Below, piece by piece: positions 32,117-64,000 of a DNA stretch of 64,000 nucleotides. Made by a program: the position numbers and the translations under genes. Source of the stretch: Astropecten irregularis (lineage: Eukaryota > Echinodermata > Asteroidea > Paxillosida > Astropectinidae); contig OZ020248.1 in assembly GCA_963971285.1 (NCBI GenBank), positions 11,470,001 to 11,534,000 on the forward strand, in the 5' to 3' direction. The notes beneath the pieces were generated by a model. That model was given only the letters and a program-made list of their open reading frames with translations. It was not told the origin of the DNA and did no database searches. Each line of letters opens with the position of its first letter. Position 1 is the first letter of the stretch.

Positions 32117-35100
32117 GTAATAAAACTCTCTGATTTTTGCTGTTTTTTTCTTTCATTTATGATTTATCGCTGAAAAATATACGTCTTTTGACGAGTTTCT
32201 GTCAAGTTCTATTAAGTGAGATAATGTAATTGATTCAAAAGTGAGGGTCTTAATGTGAAATTCATCGTTGTAAAATGAAGTCCTACGTCAGTGTTCTTTT
32301 CGCATTATATTTATCATTCACCAGTAATGATATGGTGAATTTTTCGTTTCCTTGTTATGGGGGATGATGATAAGACGGGATCCCCCAAAACGCATTGATT
32401 ATTTAAGCTCTCAGGTAGCTTTTACTCCTCAAAAATGATACTTTTGACTTTCGGCAAATGTTCATTGGTCCTTAGTTAAAAGCCTAGATTGAAGAAATTG
32501 GTGCAACATTTCAGTGTAAAAATGCAATTTTCTTACACGCTTTTTGCAAACTTGAAAACAGCCTGTGTCTGATCGCGTTAGGCCATTTTTGTCTGGTCTG
32601 GTTAGTCTAGTGCCTACACCTAACAGATCAAGAGTCCTCAAAATGTCAGAGTGGAAACCAGACTATTCTGGCCTGCGGCCGCCGTGTCCGTGCGGCCAGG
32701 CGCGTACGCAGGGGGGGTGTTTTGGACGTAAAACACCCCCCTTTGCTCAGCGGTAAAAATGTGGAAAGGGAGACAATAAGGAAACGGAGAGGGAAAAAGA
32801 TAAAAAGAAAGCACCGAATAAATACCAAGTGTAAAACAGGGAAATTTGGGGATTAAAGAAGAAGAAGAAAGATCAAGTGTGTGTTAATAAAACTTGCGTA
32901 CATGACTACATGTATAACATTAAGGCCCCCTATAGTTACATAATTATAAGGCCTATAAATTTTACATCACGACGTACGTTCGTTCCTCGTGATTGGGAGT
33001 GTTGTGCGCACGCGATGCACCCACCATTTGCAGCATGGAAAACGATCGACTCCACTCACTTTATACATACAGGCAGGGGAGGCTGGGGCCGCGTAATTTG
33101 TTTGGGTACGGTACTCGCTGGGAGTTTAGGCCGGGGGGCTCCCCGGTTAAACTTTCTAGCCCCACTAATGTGGAATAAATTTTCGCGCAAGCCGCTCCAT
33201 CCTTAGCGGCCTGAGCGAAAGATTTCCACCAGTACACGGCCTTCTTTCTTTTTACTATGCACTGTAACCATAAAAACGTAGCCTAAATGGAAACTGTTTG
33301 CACTTTTGAAAGGAAGTCCAAGACTTTGTTCTGGATGACCGTGATCGACTGCGTTTTCAGTGTCATGCACAAAAAAGAGCTTGTCTCTTCATTCTACCTG
33401 GATTTAATTTTCACGGAAATTCCGTGTTTATTGAAAAATGCAATTCAATCAAATGATAATAAATGGAAAATTTTCAAAATGTCGACTACACAGCTTTTTA
33501 CGGAAGCCCATTAGTGCCAGGTGAATATATTTATTTGACATCGGGAGTGGATATTTTCAAGTTTCGCGGCTGCGGAAAAATATTCCTTTGACAAAAAAAG
33601 CATAACCCACGTCAAAAAAATATATTCACCTGACAAAAACGGGCGTTGATATTAGACAAAATTGGCCGTTTCTTCAAAACTGGTGCAACGCATGATCATC
33701 GCTTAATAATATATTGTTTCATATTTCTTATTTTTGTTCAAATAAATGTTATGGCAGAATGACTATTTCCTTTTGATCCTGCGTCTAAATGAAAACTGTA
33801 TGAAAACAAATTTGCCATCATAACTTTTAAAAATCCTTTGGTCAATGTGTCTAAAATCCGAAATTATAAAAATGAAAAGAAAAAAACCCCATCCTATTTC
33901 CATGGCAAAAAGTTATCAAAAAGGGCCCAGAAATACTCTAAAATGCACCAGGGAGCATCTAATATCCAAAATTTCCCGGGGCCCTTAAGCGGGCCCCGTA
34001 CCCCACGCCGTGGCTTCGCAAGATTTTTTTTTAAACACCCCCCTTGGAAACATCCTGCGTACGCCACTGCGTGCGGCCGTGAAATGGTACATCTTCGTTT
34101 TTACCATTTCCACAAAAATAACCTTGCTAATCATGTAGTATAGGACACCATTAATGTATATATCTAGGTAAGGTACTTTTCAAGAAGTAGTTTTCCTTTC
34201 CTTTATTAAACTTGGGACCCATCTTATCACAATCCTGTTGTTATGTTTGTGTTAATCTGCTTTCTTGATCTAGGCATTCCCGTGCGAGGAACTACGATGG
34301 AGAGCGTAATGCGGGTGTTCTCCATTCAGAGCCAACTCTGGATCATCCGCTGAAACCTGTTGTGGTTAGGAAGTTTCTCTTTTATTTAATTAAATAGATA
34401 CAGTTAGGCCTACACTCGTGAAAGTTTCACTTAGTTTTGTTGCCGTATTTGCAATATGAATAAGCACCAATCCCTGAGGTTGAGCTCATCAAGTGCTTTG
34501 GAAAAATTGTATCCTACTAACAGTAGACCCAGTAACTGGGGAGCTGAATTCCCTTTTTTTTTTACTTTTGGGGTTGACGGTCGGTCAAGCGCCCCAGTGA
34601 ATTATATTGCTCAAAATGTGTCGTACACAGGAAAATTTCACGGCACTTTCGCCGAAAATGTCCCCAAATTACACCAAAAACATCACAAACAGAATTGAAA
34701 CTCGCTCCATTGCTTCTACGAAAGTTAGAGATGAAATGCAGCATATTATTATTAGTATTATTTTGAGCCCTGATTATGTACTGTATTATTAATGCTTTAC
34801 CTTCCTATGATGCACTCGTTTGAATCAGGTCACTGAAGTGAAGAAGATAGGCCGTGGTGGTTCCACTATTAAGCAGCAATCATCCAAACCGGCTTCAGCT
34901 GTGGACCCTTTTGCTAACACCATGGAGGGCCTGGACCCTCTCTCGCAGTTTGCTGCCGCAGCAGCTGTCAAGGTCGTGGACCCTTTGTCTCAGGGAGGCT
35001 CGCAAGGCTCCGGCTCAGACTCCGTGAGTAGATGAATAGGGCCTATATAAGACTTAAAGACGCTTGGTAGAAGTACTGAATGAAGTCAGATTTGCGGTAG

Positions 35101-38100
35101 CTTGATATTCAGACAATGTCATTATTCTTTATAAGTAAGCACACTCTGAGGGGTTCAATTCTCTCTTGCAGACGGATTCACCTGGATTCAAAAAGAATCA
35201 ACTGGATGATTCCTTTGAGCCCTGGTCCAGCAAGAAAGCCACCATCCTCAGCAAGTACACCACCTCTGAGAAACTCTCCATTACTACGGTAAGAACTGGG
35301 AACATCAACCAAAAGCATATTTAATGATTAGCGTCACACGTTTGGGGAAAAAGGCAAATTTGTTGACCTGAGCTGTTGACTTGAGCTCATTCAATTGATA
35401 TTAATTGTAAATTGTTAATTGATAAGTGTTAATTAATATTATGATCGCAGTCATTCAAGAGTGCGATACCCATGTGCAATTTTCTTGTAAGTTTTTGTGA
35501 TAATATTTTGGGTTAATTGGGTATTGTTTTCTTAAAAAGAAAATTGCTTGGTTTTGTTTATTTACAGAGCTTTCTCTCAACCGGTGGCAGAGAAAAAGGT
35601 AACACTATGATGATATGTGGCCATATATAATATAAGTGTTTTTAAAATGTTGATTGCTACTAATATGCAACACTTTTGTACTTGAATGTATAGAATAGGT
35701 CTTGCTGAATGAGATGAGACTGTATTGATTACAAATATTTTTTTTTATTTTAAAACCTGCAACCCAAAGCAGAAGCCATTTTTTATTTATTTCTCAAATG
35801 ACTACACCTTAGCAGGTTATGTGCGTACATGCTGGTTGTTGCTTTGATAGCATTATGTACAATAAAATTCCTAGGTTGTGGGGTGCCGTGGCCGAGTGGT
35901 CTGGTGTGTCGTACTCAAGATCTTGTGGTTAATCTACAAATTCTGGGTTCGAATCCAGCCATGGGCTAATGGTGCTTGCGTCCTTGGGCAAGACGCTTTG
36001 TTCACATATTGCTCCTCTTTACCCAGGTGTAAATGGGTACCTGTGAGGGTAGAGATGGCTTTGTGTGATTGATGGGCCCGATGACCAGGGATAATAATTG
36101 ATAATATTAAGCTTTGTGATACCCTTCTTGTGTGTAAGAATGCTATGCCTAAATTATTATTATTTTTATTAGGCTATTGGAGATAAGGCTCCGACACTTA
36201 TTACCTTAAATACTAGAAATGAGGTTGTTCAAATGGTTCACAATGTTGGCTGAAAGGTAGCGACGTTTCGGTTGTGGACTGCAAGCCTTTATCTGGGTTT
36301 AAATTGAGACCGTGTCTTCATCTGTTTGATGAAGGCTAGAAGTCCGCTGCCAAAATGTCACTACCTTTCAGTCAACATCTCGAGTTGTCAGACTCGTAAG
36401 CCCTGTCCGCACTGGACTTTTTTTGGGCAAAGTTACCGAGACGCTGGGTACTTTACCCATTTTAAGTCCAGTGCGGACATCTCAGGAAGTCTACCTCTCA
36501 GTTACTTTGCCCGAGCCGCGCGGGTATTTCTACCGGCCAACTTCTGCCCGGGTAGAATGCCCGAGACACTTTACCCAAGACGAAAAATCCAGTGCGTACA
36601 GTGCGAGTCGGGTACCCACATAAGCCTTGTATTGTCAGCTCGGTAATTCTTCCGTGCATGCACGTTAAGTTACCCGAGTCAAAAGTCTAAGTGCGGACAC
36701 CGGTAATATTTGCCCATTTTTCATTTACCCATCGGCTCGGTTAAATCCCTGGAAAAAAAAGTCCAGTGCGGACAGGGCCTTAGTTCCTGACTAATAACCT
36801 TATTATGGGATAGTTAAACCTTCCAGTCCTATTTGTACCGTAAAAATACCACCAGTGTGGTTTCTGTGTGAAAGACAGGTTTCTACACATGTTCCGTACT
36901 CTAATGAAACCTTCCTTTTTGAGAATCAAAATAGTCTTATACTATCTGACAGTTTGCATCAAGAACAGGGTTTATTTAACATTTTAATATTTTGTTTAAC
37001 TGTAATTCCCCCCCAAAAAATTACAGATACTAGGAAACACCTTCTCAACCTGTTTTCTTTTTTTCTCGCAGTTACAGTTAAGGCACAGTCAGCAGCGCAG
37101 AGCTCCGTCACTGACAAAGTGAAGAACAGACTGGAACAACTTGATGATTTTGAAGAGGTAAACAAAAAACAAACATATAAATTAAAATCATATCATATTT
37201 GTGACTTGCGTAAGGTCCAAACTCTTACAAAATAATACAAATGTTTTTTGTTTGTTGTCACATGATATGGTCATCGGTAGAAATCGCAACGTTTCGTACG
37301 CAAACTGCAATACTTCATCTGGCGATGGCAGTGGTCACGTCCGGGCTGCTTATATCTGGTTCCTGTTCACTGCCATTGCCTGATGAAGTATTTCAGTTTG
37401 CATACGAAACGTACCAAACTCTACCATCGTGTGACAACAGATATTAATTTTTATTTGATTTATATCTACCACGATGAATAACGTTTCAAATTTGTTTGCT
37501 TTTATTGTCCTACAAAATTGTTGGTGGAAACATTTCCAAAGCATTTTACTGTTCTTTATACAAAAACATTCAAGCTGCTTCAAATTGTTTGTTTTTGTTT
37601 TTGTTTTCTTGTTTTATTTTCCAATTCAACGAATGTATCAATTAACGATGCATAAAGGAATACAAAGAAATTATTCAGAACCTCCTATGATCAAAAATTT
37701 AATTACTTGCCATTTTATTGTTTTGTATTCTCAATTGTTCAATAGCAAAAAGCCTCTTGAGCTTGAAAGCTCGAGGGTTGATTAAAGGCTTAAATTAATC
37801 CTCATCCAAAGATTCATTGGATTATCTCTTTAATCCTTGACAGGGCTCCGTGAAGGAGATGCTGAATTTGAGCCAGCAGGATTACGTCCATCGGATTAAT
37901 GAGTTGAACCAAGCGCTGATCTCATCCTGGGATCAGGATCAGAAAGTCAAGGCCCTCAAAATAGCCATACAGGTCAGGAAGCTTGGATTAAGATAAATCG
38001 GATTAGTACTGAACTGAAAAGTCGCCAGCCTATTCATGCAGGATTCGAACCTTTACTCTATGATTGCTAGTGCAGATGCCTTACCAGAAAGGTCTTAAAG

Positions 38101-41100
38101 CTAAGAAGCCATTTGCGAGTTAAATCTGAATAGTATCTGGTACACAGACCTCTTTCATTGCATATAAACACCCCAGTTTGAATTTCACAGACTAAAGACT
38201 CTGTTGCTATATCACATGATTTGGAGCAGGCTTTTGCACAGCAATACCCATCTCTGGAATGGACTGGTTCCTTTTTGCCATTCTTATCCATTATGAACAT
38301 TGCACTGGTGCAAGACGTCTAAAGCAAAAGCTTGCCCCGAATCATGTGATATACCAACATAGTATCCCAGTCTAGTCTGGGAAATTCAACTTGGGGTGTT
38401 TATGTGCAACGAAAGAAGCCTGTGTACCAGATATTATTCAGATTTAACTCGCAAATGGCTTATTGTAATAATTGGCAGGTGATGCATTAATCATATGTTG
38501 ACCACAGTGTGAGTGGCTGTCTATCTGTTAGCACACCAGACTGCTATAGTATTTTTAGGAGTCTCTTGGTTTGGATCCCATTGATTTATCCAAAATTTGC
38601 GAATTCACAAGCTGCTCCTTTGGGAAAAAGCAAATGCATTTATACCGGTATTTACTATACCTGCTATACGAGAAAATTTTAGGTTGGGTAAATAGTTCCA
38701 AAACAGCAAGTATGGTGTCAAAAAGAAGCCGAGGCACCTCTATGACTAACAAGCCTGGAACCTGGGGCCAATTTTATAGAGCTGCTTAATCACAAAACAT
38801 GCTTAAGCATGAAAAGTCTTCCTTGATCAAACATGATTACCAACCAAATTGTCATGCGACGTTTACTGCTTTTGACTTGTATTTGCCCATTGTTTGCTGA
38901 GCATAACATTCACAAAGAGTTTTGGCTGACATATACTGGTTTTATTTACCACGTTTTTTGGAACTTAGGCAAATTTTGCTTAGCAAACTCAAGTGTAGAA
39001 TACAAACATTGTCTTTTATTTTTCTTACAGTGCTCAAAACTGTTGGCAGATACATCAGTGATACAATTCTATCCCAGCAAGTACGTGCTGATCACTGACA
39101 TTTTGGATACGTTCGGTAAGTAGACTTCACTGAAAGATTTGAGGCTTTGCATGGTGACAATTGGTATGTGGATTGGTTTGCAGAAACACCATGTAAGACT
39201 CATCGCAGATGTTCACTTTTGATGTCAATTTCACTTTGCCAGAAATCAGTCGCAAGAAAGTACGATTTGGTCTTTTTACTTATTGTCACCATTATAGTCA
39301 TCTCGAATTTGACATTTCTTCTTTTTTTCTTTTTTTCTTGGGGGTGTAGGGAGGCTGGTATACGACCGCATCCGTCGGAAATCCACCTACATCCCATCAG
39401 GTGGCACCACACCCCAGATGCTCCCGGAGAACTTTGCACCGGAGCAAGTTCCTGACTCTGCCAAAGAGACCTGCCGCAACTGGTTCTTCAAAATCGCCTC
39501 CATCAGGGAACTCATTCCCAGGCTGTATCCTTTATAACAAGCTGAAAAAAAACCCAACAAATTGAAAAATCATTGTCAGTTTGGAGAACCGTTGAAATAA
39601 ACCTAATAAGTCATTGAAAAATAAACATAGAAAATTGAGATTTGATCCTGCAACCCCTGAAATACCGTACCGGCACTCTTACCTTTTTTTTTTCCTTTTT
39701 TTCCCTTTTTTTTAATGAAAAATCGCCAATCACAAGACCCAAAGCAGGCCACTCAAGGTGATGGCTAAAAACGAGGAGAAAGGGGAACAAAGAAGAAATC
39801 ATGGGGTAGAAAGACAACTATTGATGTTGCACTTAAATTGGGACAAATTGTAAGTGGAAGGGAAGCAGGATGCAGGGAGGGAATTCCATAACAAGGCGGT
39901 ACGCGGGAAGAAACTGGATGAGTATCCCCGAGTATTTGACTTGGGGACCACTACAGTTTAAGAATGCTTACCAACTGAGCCATCGATCCCTATGTTGGAG
40001 GTGTCCCTAACATGCGTGGTTCTTCGGGGGGCTGGAGGGGAGCTTGAACCCCCACAAAAAATTTTGCTTAGCCCCCCAAAAATATTTAATTGAAAAAAAT
40101 TATTCTTGAAAATACTGGATCTTTTCAGTTATTAAAGCTGCAATTACATGGAGAAAAAAAACCACGTTGTATCGGCTATAGGTGCATGTTTTTTTTTCTC
40201 GTAATAAGACATAGCAGAATGTGTTAGAAGAAAGGTCTAGCCCCAAAAATATTGGGTCTTCAAGCCCCCAAAAAATATTGGCTCTAGAACCATGCCTGTT
40301 CCCTAATACTGAGTCTATTATTGTTGTTCGTTTGGCAGTCAGAAACCTTAACTCATTGTTATCTGCAGTTATGTTGAAGCAGCCATCATGAGCTGTTACA
40401 GTTTCTTAACAACTGGGTAAGTCTCACACTTAAGAGATAACTCTACCATTCCTCTCACAGAAAAGAAGTCCAATCGTAGCCATTAATATCATATTGCTCA
40501 GCTGTAAAGAAAACACAGCAATTGGTCAACATTGCTATTAAAGATAGTATCATACTTTGGTTTTTATCAAAGAAATACTGATTCATGGGCAAAAATGCCA
40601 AGACATATACAGTAACAGTCATCTGTGAAATTTGAAGTCCCATACGTTGCCCACTTTTTGAGAGAACAGTGAAAAACAGCCACAGTATTTCTTAAGTCTT
40701 TTCTCTTTTATTTTTGATCTTTTAAAAGATCAAAAACGATTTTTGGTCGTTGTTTTACTAATTTCTGGATAAATACACCATTTCAGGTGGAAATATTTAA
40801 CGGTATGTTTCTGCCTCCACCATCTTCATACCCTGTAAGTTATACATAAATCTGTGAACATTTCTGTTTTGGTTTCTTACCAAAGTATGACACTACCTTT
40901 TAGCAAATTTTGGCCCTAAGACCCTTATGTGGTCTTACAAATCGGCTTAATAACAACCCCGTCATCAGATAACGTCATGTCTGTCCTCTTTTCCTTTGCA
41001 GGGAGTATGAGCAAGCGTTGCTACGGCTGACCAATCAAATGAGAGGAGTGGGTGACCCACTGGTGGCCATCTATGCCCGAGCCTACCTTTGTCGTGTGAG

Positions 41101-44100
41101 TAAGACCCTAGAAAAGCAATTTTTGAAGATATGAAAGTGAAAAAAAAAACCACAACAACAACGAACAAGTCTAATCATCATGAATATTAAATGATTTTGG
41201 TCGGGAAATAGATAATATGTAAATTAGGCTTGCCCTTCACCGACGTGGATGAGCACTGTATACTCAGTACTTGTGAGAGCATGTGAAAAAAATTGCATGC
41301 TGGCTCAGGTGAGATTCGAACCCACCAACAAATAATTATTGAGTTTGAGACAGAAAATGGACTCAACAGTTCGTAAACAGTGCAAGCAGCTGTGTTTTTC
41401 AAGCAATTCAAGATTTAGTGTCTTTTCCAAAGATTGTTGGTCCGAACAATTTTTGGAACAAACATAAAGTAAACTATTCTTCATGTTTTATAAGAAAAAT
41501 TGAGTCGTGTTTTCGCTAGTTTCTCGTGACTCAGATGTCCGATTGTGCTCAAATTTTCACAGGTTTTTTTTTATTTCATGTACATGTTTGATCAGACAAA
41601 GTATGAGTGCAGTCATGTGACCTTTACCAATCATGTATTGTACCTTTAACCAATCAAATAGGGTTCTGTTTAGTAAACACCAAGGTAAGTTAAAGATTCC
41701 TTTGGTGATAGTTCTAGTAACATCATCTTATTCTTCTGTCCGTGTACAGGTGGGCGTTGCTGTTGCTCCAAATGTCCGTACTCATCTCATCAACAACTTT
41801 TACGATTTCCTGTCTTCGTACTCGCAAGTAAGTTTCTTCTTTCCGTTTATTTATTTTTCATGTAAATGGAGGTTTCTCTAAAGTGTCATAAAGCCCAAAG
41901 AAACACACGGAGTGAAGATTCATGTGTCGTAGTTCAAGGTGGGAAGACATTTTGTAGAGCGTAATTACTGTGAAAAAAGTAATGCTGTGAAATCTGTTCC
42001 ACCCCACCAATCACGCAATAGGCCATATTTACAGCGCATCCATCTTGTCACCTTCCTTGTATACCCGTTGGAAAAGATCATAACACCAATTTTAAAAAGA
42101 AAACGGGTACCAGACTACTTTTAATCCAAGGGGGTTTACGAAACTCAGGCTTAGGCTCCAGCTCTATCATCTATATAGTGAAATATAGCTTGTGGTTTTT
42201 CATTGAAGCTAAAGTTCTGTTTTCCTTTGCAAACCAGGGGCCGATTTCACTAACACTTTGTGATCATTGCTACAGCCCAAATCCATTGCTAAACAGAAAA
42301 TTGCTGTGCAAAGTAGTGATCGATTTTCCGTTTAGGTATGGATTTGGGCTTTAGCGATGATTGTAAAGCGTTAGTGAAATCGGCCCCAGATACAATTACG
42401 AACGGCAGCCCAAAGCCTTTTTTCAATACCCGTTATTTTAAAATGCATGAAGCCAGAGCCTAAGCCTGAACCTCCATTCATAAACACCCCAAGCCTCATT
42501 GTGATTGCACTGCTTTGAATGTAGGATGGATGCACCTAAGGTCTATTCCTCCCCCAAGTCCATATTTACGATGTTGCTGCACCATATTCATCAATCCTTT
42601 CTTGCACAATCACCTGTTGCATTTCAAGCAGTTGTGTGTTCTCATGTTCTCATGTTCTCATGTTCTCAAGTTCTCAACAGTAGACTTTTTTGCTTATGGT
42701 TAGCATATTTCACAGGAGAGTTTTCTTTCTCGCTACGCTAAGCAAGGACTTTCTGCAGAATGCATGCACATGACAGGGTGTTAGAAAAAAAAATCTGAAA
42801 ATCTAGAAATTCTGTGCTAACAGATTAAGTGCCGAAAATCTTGCTTATGGATTAAATATTCACAAGTTCTCTAGTTTTTTTAATGTTGTTCTTTTCACCT
42901 TAAATCTTGCTTTATGCATGACAAACCTGAGATGAAAAACCTTTCTCCAATGGAGGACTTATAGAGTCAACTGTCATTTTGTTATCCCCCATATTTCTGA
43001 AGGCTAGATCCACCCCAGGAAGGTATTATAAACTTAAAGGTATAATACATGATTGGTAAAGGTCTCAGAACAGCACTCACACTTTGTCTGATCCAGCATG
43101 TACATGAAATAATAAGCCTGTGGAAATTTGAGCTCAATCGGACTTCTGAGTCATGAGAACCAGACTCAGTTTTTCTCGTAAAACATGAAGAATGGTTTTG
43201 ATCTTACCCCGAAATCAAAGGTCTTTGTTTTACTCATTTCTGGATACATACACCATTTCTGGCGGAAATATTTTAAGGGTATGTTTCAACGAGCACCTTC
43301 TTCATGCCCTGAAAGTTATACGTTAATCTTTGAACATTTCTATTTGTGTATGTTACCAATCCTGTTCTGTAATTGTTTCTATTTTGATTGATTTCTTTGT
43401 CAGTTTTTGGTGCTTGGAAATTGTTTTTTTGGAGAAAGTCCCTGTCTAGAACAAGTCTTATTTCTGTCTCCAGGGTGTCTCCATCCATGAAAGAGAGTTG
43501 TTTTTTTCGCAGGATGTCCCGACTGCCCTCAAGCGCTCGAGGGTCTTGATGTGGGTAGGTCGGAGGAGCTTCCTTTGGGTCATTTACCGGGTTTTTCAAT
43601 CCCTACATTACCTCACAATTCATTTCGGTTTCCCTTTAATAAAACACCACTCCACTTTTTAATCGTGGGGTGGTTACCTTTTACACTCACTATCCTTTCA
43701 TAACCCGGGGAGTCTAGGTGCTCAACTTCTCCGTCTGATGCATTCCGCTACTAGCGGCAAACAGTTAAATGTGGTATCATACTTTGGTAGCATACTGAAA
43801 CAGAAATCTTCACAGGTTTACCTGTAACTTACAGGGCATAAAGATGGTGATGGTAGAAACATGCCATTACTATTTTTCTGCCTGAAATGCTGTATTTATC
43901 CAGAAAAGAGTAAATCCAAAGACCACAACTATTTTTGATCTTTTAAAGGTAGTATCCTACTTTGGTAAGAAGCCAAAACAGAAATGTTCACAGATCTACG
44001 TATGACTTACAGGGTATGAAGGTGGTGGTAGAAACATACCGTTTAATTTTTTCCATCTGAAATGCTGTATTTATTCAGAAAAGAGTAAAACAACGACCAA

Positions 44101-47100
44101 AAATCTTTTTGATCTTTGCCCATGAATCTTTATTTAGTTGACAAAAACCAAAGTATGATATTAGCTTCAACAGCAAATTGACAATCTACATTATTTTGCT
44201 GCAGCAGATCTTCTCTTACTTTGCTCGATGGTATGTTCAGAAGGTGCTAAGCTGGCTGTCTAGAAGAACTAACAATGGTTTTGTTTTCAGAGGCTGAGGA
44301 ACAACCTGCTGTTCTTTTTCTTATTATTAACAGCTGCAGTGACCTATACAACTTTTATTCCATACAACATTGTTAATGATCAAAGCTGACATTTTAAATT
44401 ACATAATACATGTGGTAGGCCTAATAAACAAATTTCAAACAGCGCATATATCACAATGAACGTGAGATGTCTCTATATATGCACGCATTATTAAATCCAT
44501 GGTCATTGGGCGACATTTTAATACATTCCTGAAACCATCGCAACTCTCTGGCAGAGTATAGATCAGCGCGGAATGACGTCATTCAACTGGTCGATGAAAA
44601 GAATGGAGCGATAAAAACATAGCGTCAAGTTGTATAATTTTTAAGATAAAAAGCTGCCAGGATTGTTTAATCTTAGTATACTGTAGTATTTATTATTTAG
44701 TATTTATTTCATTTCTCGGGAAGAACAAGTTACAAAGCACAAGAACAACAATTAACACTTTCAATAAAACAGGACAAAACAAATACAATAACTACATAAT
44801 AATCCAATCAGCTTCCGAAGGATTGCCCAAAAGGAAATATTCCTGTCAAAGGGGCTCTCCAGACTAATTAGATTAAATAAATATAATTGAAATAAATAAT
44901 CATAAATAATATAAATAAAATAATATAATAATACTGTACTTAAAGAAGGATCATTTGTCTAAGGACAAAATATGACTTGACAATGGCAGTTGTTCAGAAC
45001 CGTAATTTTTTCAACCCTTTTCCACACTTGAACATTTTCAACCCCGAGCCAACCTGGGTAGGACGGCCTAGCCGGATCGAAATCAACCCTGGTAGGGAGC
45101 AGGGTTGAAAATCTCAACCCGGTTCCAAACTGCATTTTGCACCGTGATCTGTGTTGTATGAGCCGGTTCACCATAAACATAGTGTGAATGTTGCGTCTCT
45201 TTGATCTGGTTCAAAAACTTGCCGGGCTGAACCGGGGCGGATCCGGGTTGGTTTCAACACGGATCGAAAAGGAGATAGTGTGAAAAGGCCCTCTGTTTCT
45301 TGACAAAAAAAAAAAAATACTCAGGAAAAAATTATGAATTGCGACTCGACGATGTACAGTTTGTACGTGATTCGTCCGTAGGCTTGTGCCATCTACATGT
45401 TGGTTTTCATCGGTTGTCAAGTTTATGAGAATGAAAGTACCCGGATGTCCGTGCTGATCTTAGAGTTAAATATAAAACTAGAGTGTGCACTCTGGGCGTG
45501 TTGCTTGAACCACGGCCAGCGCCATTGCATTAAGGAAACAAGGGGAAACGCGCACGTCCCGTTTCAAATTGTGCGTAAATATTCTTACCCCGGTTCGTGT
45601 GCGCAGCACTGTGGATAAAATACACGTCACGTCACGCACAGTGCGCGCAGTTCTTCGAGTAACATCCGGGTACCGTTTTTGGACTCTACTGCGGTTGCTC
45701 AGTCACCCCAACTAAAATGGCGGCTGCACGTCCGTGCCAGAGTGCCGAGAACACGCACATTGAATACGAAGCGCGCACTCTAGTTTTTTATTTAACTCTA
45801 TGGTGCTGATCTATTTAGCCTTGGCTACTGTATGCCACATAAAGGCTCATGGAGCATGGACTAATTAATGCTAAATGGTTTGTCACCGTTCTAAAAAGTC
45901 AAAATGTCCGTACCTTCTTGTTTCCAGCTCCAGAGTGACAGTGTACAGAACATCCTTGCCATCCAGCGGATTGAGATGTCTAGCTACCTGTCTCTATACT
46001 CCCCGGGCCTGGACTGGATACTGCAGTGCATCGCTCACCATGCCACAGAGGTGAATCTCAATGATCTTCACATCTCAGAAATCACTTCCAAACTAATCCT
46101 GTTTATGATTAATGACTAAAAAGAATTTTGGATTTAAACCTGGGGACAAGTTCATAGAGCTGCTTAAGCACCAAAATTTGCTTAAGCACCAAAACCCTTT
46201 AAATAAAATCAGTATGCCAGCCAAAACTCCTTGTGAATGTTATGCTCAGCAAACAATGGAAGAATACAAGTCAAAAGCGTGAAAATGTGGTTGGTAATCC
46301 TGTTTGATCAAAGAAGACTTTTCATGCTTAAGCAAATTTTCATGCTTAAGCAGATCTATGAAATTGGCCCCTGGGAAAACTGTAATATGCCAGTATCAGG
46401 AGTGGATCCAGGATTTTCCAAGAAAGAGGGCGTGGAAATATAAAATATACGAATTCAGCGGATGCATTTCTGGCCGATCAAAGCTAGCAGGTTACGGCAG
46501 ATTGACCACCATGGTATTTACCACAAGATTAATTTATAACCACTGTCCTTTGTGTGCGTAGGCATGCCTAGTGCCGGGGAAAAGGATAAGGTCCTTGGAT
46601 GAGAATATCGGGGAGCTTGCTGCCCTTAAGAATTTCTATCCTTGGGAAAATATACCGAATCTTTGAATTTAGGCTGAAATTAATTGAAATTGAAATAAAT
46701 TTGTGGACATGATGTGTTTCCCATTAGGACAACTTGACGGAGATTCTCAGCAAGTGCAGAAAGCAGTGTAACAAGTGAGTTGACATGGTTATAGAAATGA
46801 AGCACTTTTTAACAAACAGATTGGCCGAGGAATGCCTAATTCTTTTTCTTTCTTTTTTAGTATTGGCGAATTTGCTTAAAGATAACATCATACTTTGGTA
46901 GCATACCGAAACAGAAATCTTCACAGATTTACCTATAACTTTCAGGGTATGAAGATGGTGATGGTAGAATCATACCATTAAGATATTTCTGCCTGAAATG
47001 CTGTATTTTTCTGGAAAGGGTAAAACCAAAGACAAGAATGAACAGTTTTGATTTCAAGGAAATCAAACTCCTGTAGACAGATTGGAAAATACCGTGAGCG

Positions 47101-50100
47101 TTTTTCCACTGTTTTTTTCAAAAAGTGGGCATTGAATATGACTGGAAATTGACTCAGTGGATTGTTAAAGGTTTTAAATGTATAATTCATTATTGTTAAA
47201 GGTCTCAAAAAGGCACTCACACTTCGTCTGATCCAATATGTGCATGAAATAATGAAATAATGAACCTGTGAAAGTTTGAGCTCAATCGTCCATCTGAGTC
47301 ACGAGAAAATAGCGAAAACGCGACTAAATTGTTCTTTTAAAACATAAAGAATAGTTTTGATCTTACCCCAAGGTCAAAACTGTTTTCAGTATTTGTTTAA
47401 AATATTTTAACAGTATGTTTCTACCAGCACCATCTTCATAACCTGAAACTGAACATTTCTGTTTGGGTATGTTACCAATTTGTTTACCAATCCTGTACTG
47501 TACATTTAAAGACCAAAAATGTGAAAGGACTTCGTTTGTTTGTATGTTTCCCTGGTCAGTGCTCTTCTGCTGAATTCCATCATGTCAGCCTTCAAGCCTG
47601 AATTCATAGCCCACAGAGCTCTCGGATTCACAGAACTCATCAAGGAGTGCGAAGAAGCTGGATTCCCTAAGGTTAGAGTGAGGTCAAAGTTCAAAGTTCA
47701 GGTCAAAGAGCATCAATCAAACTTTGCTCGTCTGATTAATTAAAGTTGAAGGTATGTGGAGCGACGGTTTGCGGAAACACCATGTAAGAATCGTTTGTAC
47801 TTTCGCACTTCAGTTTCGTCGGCACTTCTCATAAGGTCTCAATATTTCAACTAGCCTGCTCTAGACACTTTCAGGAGATGAGGACTAGAGCAGGCTAATT
47901 GAAACATTGAGACATTAGGAGAAGTGTGAACGAAATAGAATTGCGAAAGTGCAAATGCTTCTTACATGGTGTTTCCGCAAAACCATATACCAATTGTCAC
48001 CATGCTAAGCCTCAAATCTTGAAAATGAGGGCTTGGATATGAACACCCTTTGAAATAAATTCCTGTTTTGCTTTTATTTTACCAGCGCCTTCTCCCAGCT
48101 CATTTTCAATCTTCTGTCTTTCGTTTCTTCGTACATTTTGTCTAGTATGGGAGTCTAACATTGTGATTAGCATCGGTCCAAGTGAGATGTTTTCTTTTCT
48201 CTTTGTTGCAGCACCATCTCTACCGGAATCTCGGCACAAACCTTGCCATGTCCGATCCGCCCCAGCAGCAGAGGCTGTCTGTTTTGAACGAAGTCTGGAA
48301 GTCCGTCATGAAGCTACGCAAACCTGAGGTAGAGAAATTGGGAGCCTTTCTCAAAGCTTGGCTCCGGTTCAGGCTTAGGCTTCGTCTCTGTAATCCATAT
48401 GCTAAAAATATAGGTTGTGACTAGCCTTTCATTGAAGCTGAAGCTCTGTAGTCTTTTTTCAAACTAGAGAATCTATGTCCGAACCGTCTCTATTTTGATA
48501 CCCGTAATTTTAGAATGGATTCATGTAATGGAGCCTGAGCCGGAGCCGGGCTTTGACAAAGGCCCCTGGCTGAAGATTTTGATGTCACTCTATCGGCAGA
48601 CGTTTTGGTCAATTGTGACAATAGGGTCAATCCTTTTAAACATCCATTGATCTGTTTGAGGGGAATTTTGGGAGGAAAGATGATAAAAAGACCAGAGATG
48701 TTTAAGACGTGGAAAGGTGAGGCGTTGAAGTAGGACACTGACAGAGGAAGGATGTGAGAATGGAAGGGGTGAATAAATCAAGAGGTAGACGTGTAAAAGG
48801 AAAGCAGAAGGCGATGGTTAAGAAGGGTTTGATTCTAGAGACTAGGTGAAAGGAGGGCAGAGTAGGCAAGACTCTTTAGGAAGACAATATAAGATAAGGT
48901 ATTAAAGGAAAAAATTAGAAAAATGAAACAGTGCACTTTTTGGATTGTCTATGTGGACAAAGGTAAGCAAGTTGGAAAACACCGACTCCAGTACATGTAC
49001 CTGTTCTCCTAGTATTAACCAAAATTATTTGATTTCCTTATGAATCAGGAAAAGTTGCCAATCCAAAACAGGTAAGCTTTGTCACTCGATTGGCTATCAC
49101 CCTTATTTTATGGTCCCCCCTCCCTTTTATTTATTTGTTTGCAGGATTACATCAGTTGTGCTGAAATCTGGATCGAGTATCCCTGTAGGCACTTCACGGT
49201 GAGCCGCTTAAATATCCTCCATTTTCACCTTATACTCTCTTACAGTGTTATAGTACAATGGAGCACCATTATAACGAACACCGCTATAGACCTTTCTTTT
49301 GTTTACAAACATTGTTTACAACAGTGATTGGCATGGGCGGCCAAATGTTGCAAATCATTTCGTCTTCTCGAAAGACAGCGCGACCAAATTCAACATTTTT
49401 ACAAACTTTCCATAGCTGTACAAAATACAAACCATTAGGCCGAAAAAAAAAAATTGTTTTGATTGCCCTCAGCGACCGACCGTCAATTGGTCGGGATTTT
49501 TTTATTTTATTTTTTTCCTAAAGTATATAAGTCCTAAAGTATAAAAACCTCACCATTTTGGACAGAAAATGTAAGATAAAGTCTTGGATATGCTGAAAGA
49601 ACTGTTTACTCCAGGTTCTCTTTTAATGTTGTGTCATTTAATATATTTCATATTTTATATATGTATATGAACGACACAGTATGAGTATTTATTCTTAAAT
49701 GTTTGAAAGTCAAAAAAAAAATCGACGGACCGACTCAAAATTTTAATTTTGCCACTTGAGGGCAACACAACAATTTTTTTTCCCGGCCTTATTGCTTGTG
49801 TTGTTGTCTTTACATTTTGTCTTTCAATGTTTATGTGTACAAATTGTTTTCCAATTGTGGTTATTTTTTTATGCCCGGCTTTGGTGGCTCTCCATAGTGT
49901 CCGCCATCTTGGTTGGCAAAAACTCAGGCTGTGACGTTGCAAAAGAAAGGCCTATACCAAACATTTGGCTATACCGAACATCATCCTTGGCTCCCAATTT
50001 TTGTGTACAATGTATAATAAACAACCACTATAACAAACTATCTCTGTGCATCCCAACATGTTCATTATAGTGGCATTGCACTGTAGTTATAATAACCGAT

Positions 50101-53100
50101 AATCAGTACTTAGGAAGGCATTCCCATTGGGTCAAGCACAAACTTTACTTACCTACATGTATTTCTTAACATCCTCCAAACCAATGAACTTATGACAAAT
50201 GAAAATGACATATATTGAGAGCATTCTCTGTCTTATATTAAAAATACGTTAAATGCAAGGCTTTGAGTAGCCATGCATAGCTACGAAGGCAGTGAAAAGA
50301 GGAAAATTTTGAAAAGTTTCTTGAAAATTGAGACATAACCATCAAATAACCACACAAGGGAAACTGACTGAATTTTTTAGGTCATTGAAAAGTTAACAAA
50401 GAAAAATTGACTGGAGCGGCATTCAAACCGGCGACCTCTTGAATACCGTACAGGCACTCTACCAACTGAGCCATCCAACCCTACGTTGGTGGTGACCCCA
50501 ATAGTCAATTATCTTTGTTCATTTGGCAGTCAGAAGCCATGAAACCACTCACATACTGCTTCGAAAACTGAGATAGATGAAGTGTCTCTGATATGTAAAG
50601 AAATTTTGTTCTACTCCCTGTCTTAAATCTGTTTGTATACATTCACGAATGTGGATTGATTGGTTATCTGTGGGTTGTGTGATAAATCCCCCTTACGATT
50701 TTTGTTGTCATTTTTTTTTCCAGAAAAAGGAGGTGAACACGATTTTGGGAGACATCATCAAGCACCTGACTCCAGACCGGGCGTTTGAATCTTTCTACCC
50801 ACAGGTAATGAACCAAGCTGACCTCCAAGCAAAAAAAACGGGGGAAAGTTATGCAAATTTTGGAGAGTTTTGAAAATTGATATCACAGATAGTTGACATA
50901 CTGTGAAGTGATGGATCGGCTATTGGTTTTGTGCACACGATACTTGACGTAGTGGCGCATCAGCTATACACTGTACACCACTTAATAGTAATGCACTAAA
51001 TGATTTTGCTACAACTGAAAGGACCCAGATTGGAGCTTTTCCCACAAGTTTGTGCCGTTCTGGGTCATCTTCTGGCAAAACCACCAAAGAATGTTGAGAT
51101 TTCTCTTAAACAATAAGTCAATAAGTTCACTTCAGAAAGCTAGATTTATGTCTGGCAAATTTCCACTTGCTGTGTGGCTGTGAGGGCGAGAAACTTAAAT
51201 ACTGGTAGGGCTATAAGCCACTGAAAAGCCAGGCCAGGCCTGTGCTTTGCCTGGGGTCTTGGGCTTCTGTAATCCCGAAACTTGAACTATCAACTCTAAG
51301 CCCCTGCTGTGTCCTGGATCATAGTTGGCATTAACCTGATTGACAGGTTGAGTCACATTTATCACGGATAATATCCAGAAGCCAGGATTTCTTGATTTTG
51401 AGCAGCTCTGTTGTAGTGAATTTTGAGGCTGACGAGGAGGATTACAGGCCCGAAATCTTGGGCCTGGCCAGGCATTTCGGTGGCTTGGGCCTGGCCAGTT
51501 TTTAAGTTTCCCTCCCTAAGGCATAGATGCATGGATGCAATGATTAAAATTTCCAACCACTATTTATCATAATAATATTAGATTGTCTGACTCAAGATTA
51601 CAATTTCACCGAGATTGCCTGTTGTGCTGTTTGGTTTGTAGTTGCAGTCGGTGATGTCCAAAGTGTTGGCGCACATCAAGGATTTCTCAGTTCTGCTAGC
51701 GATGGTAAGATCAGATAGATTTTCTCTCATCTAGGCTGTTTGGTCTTTATTTCAGTTGTTGGTTTCATCATCAACTGGAACCGCATTGGAATATAATTTG
51801 TGTTTCACTGAGAACTCATGTAATGCTGAAGATAAATGTGCTTTTAGTAGTATGTGGTGTTCTCTTCACTAACCCCATCCTCCCAAGAAGCTGCTATAGC
51901 AGTTTGTCTCATGGCATGAGAATATTCACGACTGCTTCGTTATTTCTATTGAAATACATTGAATGGGGGGTACTGTCTGGAACAAGAGGTTCAATGAACC
52001 TTTATTGTCCCACAAAATTCGCTTATTGTGGTACCACAATCTGTGACTTCTGAACACAGCTGCAGTGACACTGATTATGTCTGCCTGGAATTTAGACTAT
52101 TGTCCAGCGGTATTCAACCATTGTGTGCCCGCATTGTTTACGCCAATTTTTGACCGGTGACTTAAAATGAGGCCGGTAAACACGAAACCTAAAAAGGGAT
52201 TAATGCTGCCACTTTTGATTAAAATACTTGGGCCGATTTCATGAAGCACTAAGTCTAAACTCTGAATAATCTTTGTTTGCTTAGTTTATGATAATGAAGA
52301 ACTCAAGTGAAATATAAACAAAAAGCTATTAAAAATGCGTCAACTGCCACAACATGCACAGTAACGGGATGCAGTTAAAGCTTGTGATTCGCCCATCAAT
52401 GTCATTTGTCTGTGGGGTTTGTAGGAGTTTGACATAGTTTGGAAGTTACCTTCATTGATTTTAGGTGGCTCTTTCCTCCCAATACACTTCCTGGTTGACA
52501 TTTTGGGAGTTTGACGTTGTTATCCAGTTTTGACTATAAAGAGCAGGAGAGTCATGCCTGAGAATTTGGTAGGATGACATCGACTGCTAGCATCCTTTAT
52601 TGACATCAGAAGGATGTATTATTATTATTTTTATTGCTGGTTTATTAATAACTGTCAATGGCAGCCCAAAGGTTGAATTAAAACAGTTTTACAATGATTA
52701 TTTAAAAACAACAGGTAAAATTACTTTACTTTGAATAAAAATAATAAAATACGGATATATGAATATAAAACAAGAAACAAGTACGAGACACACATACATT
52801 GAGAATGAGAGTGGAGAACTAAATAAAAGAGTTAATCGTTCTTGTGAAGTAGGGGACCAGACTATTATAATAACGCTTGGATTTGCTTGGGAATTCTTGA
52901 AGTGTCCTTTTGGATCTAAGATTCATTGTATGAATATTCCTGGATTTTACGAACCATTCATTGAATTTGTTTGAATTAAAAGCTCTTAAAGCAAATGTAG
53001 TGCTATGAATGAATTGCTGGAATGAATGGTTTTTGGTCTGCTCTGTATCCTCTTAGGACAAGTTCATGCCGATGGTGGATATGTTTCAGAAGGATGTTGT

Positions 53101-56100
53101 CAAGGTAGAGCTGTGCCGTTCTATCATGGAGGCGTTCTGTCGCAATCAGGAAAAACAGACAAGCGATCCGGTCATCATCAACGCACTCATGTTCATCTGC
53201 AAGACCATGCATGACTCCATCAAGTAGGAAACAACTTTCAGTGTTATTTTCAAATTAACAATTCTAATTATATTTTGTTATAATTGATTTATTCGTCGAG
53301 GAGATGCAAATAATTTGAGCAGAAATCATGCACTGGCACAGTTGGGATTCGAACCCACTACCTCCTAGTGCAAATGTCGTACCGCTTGGCCACCGAGCTA
53401 GCTGGGGTCAGCGAAGTGAATCAAATCCCAATATCGGCGGGCACTGTAATTAATCTGTTATAATTTTTTTTTTTCGTCGAGGAGATAGAATAATGCAAAA
53501 AATGTATTGCCCTTCAACGACATAAGGCCTTTTCCCACTAGGGCGCTCATCCCCGGGGTGAACTCACCCGGGAGCCACCCCGGGGTGAAAATTTCAACCC
53601 TGGTCCCAAGCAGGGTTGAACTCGCCCCGGAGAAAAGGCAATCTCGGGGGTGGCTCAGGGGTGGCTCGTGGGTGACGGAGGGGTGAACATTTCAAGTGGG
53701 AATCGTGGCTTATTTTCACCCCCGCATCACCCCGGGGCCACCCCTGAGATTGGTCAAGTGGGAAAAGGCTTATAGATAAGCACTTCACTAAGTGCCTTTC
53801 GAGCACACATGAACAAATCATGCGCTGGCTCAGGTGGGATTCGTAACCACGACCTCCTGCTTACTATTTGTAGCCAGTTTCCTTCATGGCATCTTTGTCT
53901 TATCAACAGTGCACTGTCTCTTGAGGATGATGTTCGTGAAATTGGCAGACTCATCGCTGGATTCATCCGAAAGGTAGGAGATGTACTGGAGATGTACTGG
54001 CAATGTACATCGTGCTTGAAAACGAAGGAAGTGAAACGTGTAGATTGTTTCATTATACAAGTAATAAACTGCTGCAAACTCTCATCAGCCCAAATAATGA
54101 CCTGAAATTTATAAAATACTTGGAGTTAGAAGGGCCTGGCGTTTCGATCCTAGCAGGATCTTTATCGAAGGCTAAATGACAAGAGGACAAGAATATGCAA
54201 GTAAAGATACACATAAATGGATGAGAGGATCAGGACAAAAACGGGGATGGGGGTTAGGGAGGGTAGGGATGGGTATTTGATCAGATAAGGAGAAGTCATC
54301 ATTGGTAGGCAAGATCAAAGTTGGCAGACAACAGGCGCGGAGAAGAATGTGGCTGGGGGACTGGGATTATTTCTTAGTTGGTTTAAAGTCGAGAGATTAA
54401 TTTGACGACTCTTCTTCCTCATGTCACTAGATTTCTTTTGGGCGTGACTTTGAGCAGCAGTTGAGTTTCTACGTGGAATGCCGTGCCAACTTCAGCTACA
54501 TTGACAGCGTGCTGGTTGCCTTGGTCCAGGTGAGAGTGTCCCTTCATGGCAAAGCTGGTAGCGAACCCCTCTAACTAGCTCTTCTCCCATTTACCATTGG
54601 ATTTTATAGGCCATGTTTTGTATTGTGTCTCTCCGTGGTTTGGGTTTTTTTGTGCAAATTCTTAGATTATATGTAAAATTGAAATTAAAGATATCATTGC
54701 TTTTTGATAACAAATCAAAGGATTGATTTTCACGTATGTTTTTGCTTTTTCGACCAGTTAATGTGCTAAAATATCACACGTACGTAATTTACAAAACGAC
54801 AGTATTAAACTGAATTTAAAAGCAAGCAAACATTATTTTTTGCCCGGTACCTAGTGTGTCAACCAACTGGCTACTGAGACACGCACGGTCATGAAGGGGA
54901 ACCACTCCAGGAAGACAGCAGCCTTCATTCGGGTGAGTTTAAAACATCAAAGAGATAAAAGCCTGCAAGAACTGCAAGAAAAGAGTAAATCAAAGACCAA
55001 AAACAATTTTGATCTTCAGAAGATCAAAAATAACGGTGAAAAGATTTCAAAATACCACAGGCATTTTGCACTATTTTCTAAAAAAGTGGGCACTGCATGC
55101 GACTGGGAATTTCAAAGATGACTGTTACTTTATTCTTTCTTAATCATCAAATAACCACAAGGAAAACTGACTGAATTTAAAAGTCATTGAAAAGTGAAAA
55201 AAGAAAAATTTACTGGAGCGGGATTCGAACCGGCAACCTCCATGAATACCTCCTGAAAAGCCGTATCCTCTTACAGGTTACAGCATTGCTGCTCATTTCG
55301 GTGAAATGATCCTTGGGTTATGGCGGTGTGCGCGTAGTTTTATGGCTTCTGAATGCCAAACAATCAAGGATGATTGAGTATTGGGGTCACCACCAACGTA
55401 GGGCTGGATGGCTAAGTTGGTAGAGCGCCTGTACGGTATTCAGGAGGTCGCCAGTTTGAATCACGCTCCAGTAAATTTTTCTTTGTTCAGTCTTTAATGT
55501 ATTCTTTCTTCATACTTTTGCCCATGAATCTGCATTTCTTTGACAAAATCTAAATTATGATAATTTATCTTTAACCCTAAGAAGCAGCCTTCAATCTGAA
55601 ATTCTTCTTTTGGTTTTATCCAGGCCTGTGCTGCTTATTGCTTCATCACTATTCCTTCCATTGTCGATATCTTCCATCGGTTGAATCTCTACCTCGTGTC
55701 CGGTCAGGTGGCTCTGATGAACCTCGCCCTGACCCAAGGTATGTCCAGGAGTAGAGTTTGTATTCACTACTTAGTTGTTTAGGGTTAAAGGTAGTGTTAT
55801 ACTTTGGTAGCATACCGAAAAAGAAATCTTCACAGATTTACCTATAACTTACAGGGTATAAAGACGGTGACGGAATTAACACACCGTTAAAATTCTTCCG
55901 CCTGAAATGCTGTGTTTATCAAGAAAAGAGTAAAAACAAGTGACAAACATTATTTTTGATCTTTTGTGTCTCTTTTTCTAGCGGATGCCTTCTTCAAGGG
56001 TGCCATCAGTCTGATACCCGACGTTCCTAAGACAATGGTGATGGACAGTAAATCACGCTCCACGGAGCCCTTCCTACTCGGCTACATCAACAACTTCCTC

Positions 56101-59100
56101 TCGACCATGCTTGTTGTACCAGTGAGTCACTTGCAGACGCTAACGTTAATGCTCCCTAATACCCTATTTGTGAAAATAATAATGTCACTCCTGCTATAAA
56201 AGTATAACCACAAAATCTATTTGCTTTTCTTTTTGCTTGTCTTAGTGACTGTCTATTATTGCCTTACTCCTTGACCAGGATAACCCGGACTATGGCGTTC
56301 TGTACCTGGTCCGTGGTCTTCTGAACGTTGTGCAGGACTACGTCTGGGAGCCCAGCACCGATACCAAAGCCCTCGTGTTTCTCAATGTACTCAGCCTCCT
56401 GTCTGCAATTAGCCAGGACCAGTACCTCTACCACGTGAAAAATGGTGAATTCTTGAAGCATTCTTCTTCCTCTTGTTGTTCAGTTTGATGATCTATACCT
56501 ACATGCCCGAGACCAAGGGCCTGTTTGTTTAATGCACTGGATCCCAAATTTTCGGATCCACGTCCTATGCAGGGTACGCTGAAATGGGATCCGGATCCTC
56601 AGAATTCGTCATAAAGAAACAGGCCCCATGGGCCTGCTTGTTTCAGGCACGCAATCAGTGATCTTGCAGATCCATGTCCTATACAAGATATGCTAAAATG
56701 GGATCAGGGCTTGATTTCACGAAAGGCTAAGACAGATCGTAACATGCGTATCAATCTTAATTGCTAAGCAAAGTGTGATGTCACAATACTAGTTACTTTA
56801 GAAACAGGAACAACTCCTTTAAAAGATGAATCGTAAATCTTTGTGAAATCGACTGTTAGAGCAGCAGGATCACTACTTGCATGCCTGAACCAAACAGGCC
56901 CCATTATTCTTTTTTTTTATGGCTATGCACCTAGTTAATGTTAATTTTTCTTGATTTGGTTGCTGCTGTTGCTATTGTCACTGCTGCAGCTGTTGTTGCT
57001 GTTGTTGTTGCTGCACCTGATATTTCTGTATATGCATATAATGATAACAGGTTAATATTTAAGATGGTTTTTGAAGATAATCACAATCTGACTTTCCTAA
57101 AACTGAATTTGGAAATTGTTTTCTATACATGGTTAACTCCTTTCACCCTTTTTTTGTGTGTACATTTATATTGGCCTAAAAGCGCTCCGCACTAATGACG
57201 TCACAAAATCCCCGGATGTCAGACAAACATTGTCTCACACACGTAGTGTACATACACGCGCCGCACACGCACACACGTGCATGGTTGCAAACTTGCAATG
57301 TTTGTCTGAGATTGAGTGCGGAGCGCTATTATCAGTTACCAGGCCATGTGTCCAGGCAGATCACACAATGGTTAAAAACTCCTGGACAATATTCCTGACC
57401 AACATAATCGGTGCCACCACTTCTGTGTTCTTCGCTCACAGGTTGCGCTCGCTAAAAAAATTATTTTCTCAGATGCAAATCAAGGGGTAGTTTCACCACA
57501 ATAAGCCCGTTTTGACATGTTTGAGGGAACAATAAAGGTTCATTGAACCTCTCCTTCCAGACAATACTCCCATTCAACGCAATCCAATGGAAATAACAAA
57601 GCAATCATCACATTGATGCATCATACCGGGGAATTAATGTAGATCAGGGGTGGGCAACCTTCATGAATCAATGGGCCAGAAACGAGGAATGGAAAATTTG
57701 GCGGGCCGCACTATGGTCAACAATGCACTTTCAATTTCAAACATTCAGTAACGAGGAATATCTTAGAGGGCAACCCCACTATATAAGGAACACAACCTGA
57801 CAACTGTGCTTTGTTAGTGAAAATTTGTCAGAGAAATACCGATATGACTCAATTGATACCTCGCTGTGTGAAGCACATACCAATTTCTTTTTATTCTGGA
57901 TGCGTCTCGCGGGCTGCAAAAAAATCAATGGCGGGCCGCATGCGGGCCGTAGGTTGCCCACCCCTGATGTAGATGCTTCCTGGGTGGAAGGGGTTAACAT
58001 TTGGACACCCCTGTGTCTTTCCATTTGATGCAGTTTTTGTTTCTCTTTGAAATCTCTTTCTAGTTGATTCCAATGACACCTTGTACGGAGGCGACAAGAA
58101 ATTCGTGGCAGAGGTCTCCCTCCTGTGTGGCACCCTCATAACATCAATCCTGGAACATTTGAAAACGCTGGCACAGTCCGAGGTAAACATCAAATCCATC
58201 CCTTCATTGAATCATTCATTCAGTCTGATTTATTCTGATAAAAGAATCATTCAAATGGCAAGTCAGTATACTATTACTAAAAATGCCTGATTTACATTAA
58301 AAAATAAGCCAAAAGACAACAAATAGAAGAATTGAAATAAGAAAACTTAAAGCAACATACATTAAAGCATACCGAAACAGAAATCTTCACAGATTTACCT
58401 AGAACTTACAGGGTATAAAGATGGTGGTGGTAGAAACATACCGTTAAAAATTTTTCTGCCTGAAATGGTGTATTTATTCAGAAAATAGTTTCCACTTTTT
58501 CTAGGGCCAATTTCATTGAGCTGCTTAAGCACCAAAATATGCTTAAGCACCAAAAACCTTGGTAAATAAAATCAGTATACCAGCCAAACAATGACCGAAT
58601 ACAAGACAAAATCAGTAAGCATCATATGGAAATTTGGTTGGCAATCTTGTTTGATTGATGAAGACTTTTCATGCTTAATAAATAATTTCTGTGCTTAGGC
58701 AGGTCCATGAAATTGGCCCCTGCTGTTAGCAGTTAGCAGGCAATTTTGCTGGTAATTTCTACAGTGCTTTGGAAGTAGCCCATGGTATATAATGTGATCA
58801 GCCTTGTTCCTTCATGTTTTGTTTTGTTTTTGTTGGTTTTCAATCAGAATGGTCAGAAAAGACAGTCTCAGCTTGCGTTGGATTTTTTCAACTGCATCAT
58901 TGTCCACGGTGATATCTCACAACCTGAGATATCCTCACTGGCACTTAATCTCTGGAATCTGGCCCAGAAACACGGACAAGCTGACACAAGACACATGGTG
59001 AGATATGGTGAACCTTGATGGCTGGGTTGGGTTGGAATGGGCTGGGTTGGGTTGGGTTGGGTTGGGTGGGGATGGGATGGGTGGGGTTGGGTTGTGTTGG

Positions 59101-62831: not shown

Positions 62832-63471
62832 ATATCGAACGAAGGCCGTTTACTCTATATGCCTCTTGAAACTCGAACACTAATCATCTTTTCAATGACG
62901 AATGCAGGATCATGGACTATCTTATTATGAGATAAATGCGGGGGAATATGAAAAGACTATAGAATTTTAATTAAAAATGCCAGACTAATCGATATCCTAA
63001 TGGCAATAACCTTTGGGAAAATACATCTCTTCTATAAAAAAAAAAAAAATTTAGACAGTAATTTAGACATAATTCTAAATGCCCTGACTTCAGTTGTGAA
63101 ACATGATGTTACAAGCATTCTAATGCAAGTGAATGTTTTTACATTTATGTTTATGATATTACACATTCAAGTATTAAACTATTATTGGTTTATATTAATC
63201 CTGAACGAACCCATATGACGTGTGCGTTATACATGACCTTCTAAATTCAATCAATTTGGTCCATGCGTGCCAAACACGACACTGTATGCATTGAATGCTC
63301 ATGGGCGCACAGCGTGCATTAATATAACGCCGTGTGAGTTGTGTGTACTGTACTGATGCACACAGTGCTCGCCTCATCATAAATTATGACAATGCTGATT
63401 TTATTGATGATGTAGTAGACGGAGCAGCATTGCTCTCTGTACGTGTATGCGTATAGGTCTCTGCATCCAAC

Positions 63472-64000
63472 ATGGCGGCTAGACATCTCAAGCTCGGCGT
63501 TATACCGCTGCACTACTTGCTCGTTGTATTAGCCATCGCGGGGTTTTACGTCGTAACAATCTCGTCCCAGGAATACACCGAGTCGCCAGAGATTGTGGTA
63601 GCGGATTCCGAGCCTCAGCCCTACTGTACGTTTTTCAACAATCGTGCTCCAGCGGCCCAGCCGAACCTCAAGAACTGCACTTGGTTTAAGGACCACTGCT
63701 GCTGTCGCCAGGTGGAGATAGAGGTTGCTTTCGGTAAAGTCAAACCCTTGCAGGGTTCCACCTTGCCCTGCCAGAGGTACATCAACTACCTCATCTGCTA
63801 CATCTGTGCGCCCACCCAGTACAAGTTCTACCTTTGGCAGAGGCTGACCGTCTGCGAGGAGTTCTGCGATCTCATCTTCGACAGTTGCAAAGACGCCATA
63901 CTCAAGGGCTCTCGCATCGGTGAGCTGTACAAGAACGGCACCAACTTCTGCAAGAGTCGGCGCTTCGAAGTGGCGCCTTACTCCTCGGGGAAGTGTTTCT
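63472..64000 (+). CDS. Folate-receptor-like cysteine-rich protein, N-terminal part (runs off window)
   Basis: An open frame of 176 codons with no stop before the edge. The start ATG sits in CAACATGGCGGC. Residues 13-31 are hydrophobic (LHYLLVVLAIAGFYVVTI), a signal peptide or anchor. From about residue 52 a cysteine-rich domain follows: YCTFF, NCTWFKDHCCC, LPCQRYINYLICYICAP, LTVCEEFCDLIFDSC, NFCKS. The pattern (Cys, NCTWF then CC, C-x-x-C-x-P, C-x-x-F-C-x(6)-C) matches folate receptor and HHIP-type domains. Conserved folate-binding residues cannot be judged by eye, so folate binding is not claimed. NCT and NGT sequons fit an extracellular location. Whether the exon ends beyond 64000 is unknown. 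Confidence 0.82.
   Translation, partial: MAARHLKLGVIPLHYLLVVLAIAGFYVVTISSQEYTESPEIVVADSEPQPYCTFFNNRAPAAQPNLKNCTWFKDHCCCRQVEIEVAFGKVKPLQGSTLPCQRYINYLICYICAPTQYKFYLWQRLTVCEEFCDLIFDSCKDAILKGSRIGELYKNGTNFCKSRRFEVAPYSSGKCF

Follow-up and report, generated by a model that had tools for sequence, protein, structure and literature searches.

Does the VPS35L gene of Astropecten irregularis carry an intron that would be removed by the minor spliceosome? The question is raised by the intron at 39525–40368 of the stretch analysed here (64,000 nt, referred to as the window; assembly GCA_963971285.1, contig OZ020248.1, positions 11,470,001–11,534,000, forward strand). Judged from sequence, this VPS35L intron is very probably of the U12 (minor) type, with GT-AG ends and in phase 2. 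Strong support for the U12-type class, assigned to this one intron only among the 26 scored, comes from motif scores, possible snRNA pairing and a positive control in the same genome.

The VPS35L gene and the position of the intron

Hand-fused translations from the window align with human VPS35L (8p0v_O, 963 residues) at 998 bits. The identity of the gene rests on this human structure sequence because Pfam gave no match for the one exon and the one hand-fused N-terminal stretch of VPS35L submitted to it. A splice-aware alignment of human residues 44–960 (letters taken from the 8p0v_O alignment, residues 502–506 set to X) against positions 33501–61000 spans 34835–59702 and contains 26 modelled introns. 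Further upstream, an exon near 34274 aligns with human residues from 7 on and is preceded by an acceptor-like AG. From this exon two further upstream introns can be inferred, so that the intron at 39525–40368, the seventh of the 26 modelled, becomes the ninth by order, in agreement with the initial annotation, which had called it intron 9. The first coding exon and the stop codon of VPS35L were not found in the window. The coordinates of the features are given in Table 1.

Table 1. Features of VPS35L and of its putative U12-type intron (window coordinates)
Feature	Position	Strand	Basis
VPS35L, coding part found (human residues about 7–960)	34274..59702	+	protein homology and spliced alignment
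Preceding exon, ends ...IRELIPR + CT	39350..39524	+	U2-weighted model (start 39354 in unweighted model)
Putative GT-AG U12-type intron, 844 nt, phase 2	39525..40368	+	motifs, spliced alignment, snRNA pairing
Putative U12-type 5' splice site, GTATCCTTT	39525..39533	+	motif score, U11/U6atac pairing
In-frame TAA if intron retained	39535..39537	+	translation
Putative U12-type branch site, AACCTTAAC	40344..40352	+	motif score, U12 pairing
3' splice site AG	40367..40368	+	first AG past branch site
Following exon, begins T + ...	40369..40416	+	spliced alignment

The edges of model introns 2, 3 and 6 differ between runs without weights and with U2-only weights, and the gene model is therefore uncertain in its N-terminal part. 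The edges 39525/40368 were selected by the alignment both without splice-motif weights and with U2-only weights. The resulting join IPRL/YVEA, at which the codon for human residue 294 is interrupted, is thus independent of the U12 motif, and the earlier statement that it is fixed by protein homology stands. The exon beside the donor has a single match in the genome, namely itself. With 844 nt the intron exceeds the median of the 26 modelled introns, 681.5 nt; it contains a few short repeats, for which no role is claimed.

Several other features were observed in the window. A minisatellite at 59002–59553, which reads as repeated WVGLG in several frames, lies inside the last modelled VPS35L intron (58998–59615). 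A Pfam scan covered 10 of 129 further open frames (≥75 residues), chosen by hand with the aim of taking the longest ones less minisatellite frames and two overlaps. It found a CUB domain (PF00431, 3.3e-17) in a frame at 23402–23881 on the minus strand, with an acceptor-like CAG just upstream, which is probably an exon of another gene. A frame at 63457–63999 on the plus strand, which reaches the window end, contains a folate receptor domain (PF03024, 1.8e-13). With Rfam models at gathering scores, the window gave nothing beyond a weak tRNA match at 6892–6964 on the minus strand (29.5 bits, cut-off 29).

Splice motifs and intron class

The donor reads GTATCCTTTA at 39525–39534, with GCT/GTATCCTTTATAAC across the exon/intron edge, while positions 40344–40368 read AACCTTAACTCATTGTTATCTGCAG, then TTATGTTGAAGCA. 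The putative branch site ends 16 nt short of the intron 3' end, and from its last A (40351) to the final base of the intron the distance is 17 nt; the published optimum for this distance is 11–13 (PMC3584512). We scored the 26 modelled introns with approximate U12 and U2 matrices. The conserved U12 donor is (A/G)TATCCTTT, and the branch-site consensus is TTCCTTAAC. The donor GTATCCTTT, found in only 1 of the 26 introns, carries all nine consensus bases and scores 11.8, compared with -8.1 or lower in the other 25, which bears out its description as a full match to the minor-spliceosome 5' site. Likewise, AACCTTAAC obtained the best U12 branch-site score of the 26 (9.8, others ≤5.7) and agrees with the consensus at 7 of 9 positions, the mismatches being the first two bases, so that the fit proposed near the 3' end was recovered as well. 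According to the initial annotation none of the other 28 VPS35L introns shows this pair of motifs. This holds for the 25 others scored; the two inferred upstream introns and any 29th fall outside the count.

The U2 donor score of the same intron is -5.7, the lowest of all 26, and the donor does not correspond to the MAG/GTRAGT type. The 3' end is not clearly pyrimidine-poor: its richest stretch of 12 has 9 pyrimidines, as compared with 8–12 in the other introns. On both strands of the window 2 of 7163 GT dinucleotides reach this donor score, and 46 of 7114 AG dinucleotides reach this branch-site score. Under a first-order Markov null for 26 introns, the joint chance of both motifs is 1.4e-5 by a strict definition (GTATCCTT plus CCTTAAC) and 4.8e-4 by a loose one (6 or more of the 7 donor bases plus CYTTRAC). 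For U12-type introns with GT-AG ends a bias in phase and at position -1 has been published, with which phase 2 and the T found here agree (PMC7367187); intronIC uses the same two sites, donor and branch site (PMC7367187).

A second GTATCCTTT, the other of the two GT sites that reach the donor score, is present at 25929–25937 on the minus strand and is followed by a T run; no adjoining exon edge was seen by eye.

Minor spliceosomal RNAs and their possible pairing with the intron

The whole genome (475,729,200 bases in 168 contigs) was searched for components of the minor spliceosome. Single matches over the cut-off were obtained for U12 (132.2 bits), U6atac (139.2 bits) and U4atac (87.4 bits), all three recovered by cmscan, and for U11 (100.7 bits). 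By these matches, the minor spliceosome RNAs are encoded in the same genome. The U11-48K type zinc finger PF05253 gave three genome matches, but it is a weak marker, since among 14 control genomes one, that of an archaeon, had a match as well.

In a fixed register, all six bases at donor positions +4 to +9 could pair with the 5' end of the species' own U11 (AAAAAGGGUUU) and equally with AAAGGA in its own U6atac, while in either case the other 25 introns reach at most 3. The duplex of this donor with the own U11 is the strongest of the 26 (-6.5), and that with the U1 5' end is the weakest (-1.3, the next being -4.2). With human U11 letters in place of the own U11 the donor duplex amounts to -5.2, and at least five other introns lie lower, down to -9.3. 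At the branch site, GUAAGGAA of the own U12 could form all six Watson-Crick core pairs with AACCTTAAC; 22 other introns reach at most 4 and 3 have no candidate. A count allowing G-U pairs over 8 positions did not single out this branch site, which scores 6, compared with 7 each in two introns and equal values in two more (among 17 of the 26 rows).

In the splicing that we infer for these RNAs, GTATCCTTT would be recognised by U11 and later by U6atac, CCTTAAC would base-pair with U12 and leave one A as a bulge, and cleavage by the minor spliceosome would take place at 39525 and 40368.

MAPK-like loci as a positive control

Minor introns are frequent in MAPK genes, with a figure of 69% given in PMC6865273. 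As a control, human p38-alpha was aligned to three loci of this genome (L010–L016), which are called JNK-like or MAPK-like as a guess based on p38 similarity. The unweighted models contain 24 introns, and four of these have U12 donors, in phase 1 or 2, while the other 20 score -0.8 or lower. The 20 include several poorly modelled introns of the third MAPK-like locus, where two AT-AC calls look artefactual. Since the MAPK-like loci yield four, the scoring finds U12 introns where they are expected.

The four introns resemble the VPS35L intron in their donors (GTATCCTTT in three, GTATCCTTA in one), in phase and in the spacing of the best-scoring branch sites, which lie 15, 15, 17 and 22 nt from the 3' end; a spacing of 17 nt is therefore not unusual in this genome. 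Three of the four branch sites are near-perfect (TTCCTTAAC or TTCCTTGAC, 13.7–14.1) and thus better than that of VPS35L, whereas the fourth (GAACTTAAT, 1.9) is weaker.

Within the control set, two MAPK-like loci have in common a U12-type intron that interrupts the codon of p38 residue 102 (phase 2), and another in the codon of residue 228 (phase 1) is common to one of those loci and the p38-like locus. These shared introns are perhaps older than the gene duplications.

Alternative readings and possible effects on VPS35L output

An intron with GT-AG ends and a 3' pyrimidine content within the range of the other introns might also be of the U2-type, its donor being very poor and similar to the U12 consensus only by coincidence. 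We regard this as very improbable, as it would combine the lowest U2 donor score and the weakest U1 pairing of the 26 introns with a donor and a branch site that are both U12-like, a coincidence with a joint chance of about 1e-5 to 5e-4, and as the identical donor recurs in MAPK introns. A misplaced exon edge, with another donor or another acceptor in use, appears even less probable. Nearby alternatives do exist, a GT at 39401 (U2 score 1.6) and a GC at 39444 (U2 score 2.1), but both would delete residues conserved with human VPS35L; a GC at 39522, with a U2 score not above zero, would lose a conserved R, and under both weightings the alignment favours 39525/40368.

With the U12-type reading retained, slow removal of the intron might limit or switch VPS35L output via retention and transcript decay. 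This would be compatible with the U12 class, but we consider it unlikely. A retained intron would add Tyr-Pro-Leu and meet, four codons on, the in-frame TAA listed in Table 1, so that the product would end near human residue 297, at about a third of its length. Most retained introns, however, would give an early stop anyway. Slow splicing of minor introns has been proposed as a rate limit (PMC3584512), but many minor introns are without retention according to PMC6717393, and the survey in PMC10639083 favours neutral evolution of minor introns and finds them in general no better conserved than major ones. Any effect of the intron on the VPS35L level is speculation, and the more specific idea that removal of this single intron is a regulated bottleneck which sets VPS35L, and hence Retriever/Commander, levels by tissue or stage seems slightly less likely still.

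Comparison with known minor introns and significance

The VPS35L intron is like other animal GT-AG U12-type introns in its donor, its branch site and the closeness of the latter to the 3' end, in its non-zero phase and T at -1, and in the presence of minor snRNAs in the genome; it differs in the two 5' branch-site mismatches and in the distance of 17 nt compared with the optimum of 11–13. It is thus very probably a genuine, ordinary U12-type intron of a well-known kind. According to the review PMC3584512, the share of minor introns stays below 0.5% in every genome, and PMC10639083 gives 0.828% for human genes aligned in one analysis, with an estimate of 1.04% for the Chordata-Echinodermata ancestor. 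At 0.5–1%, a gene with 28 introns would on average contain 0.14–0.29 minor introns, and one in VPS35L is therefore unremarkable. No relevant paper on VPS35L/C16orf62 and minor introns was among the matches listed in a literature search (mouse name included), with supplementary lists and intron databases outside its scope; the main texts of PMC6717393 and PMC6865273 contain no word beginning with VPS.

A Commander complex gene thereby gains one well-supported minor intron, and the animal that carries it has a full set of minor snRNAs. Should vertebrates have a U12-type intron at this position too, VPS35L would deserve attention as a target in minor-spliceosome disease.
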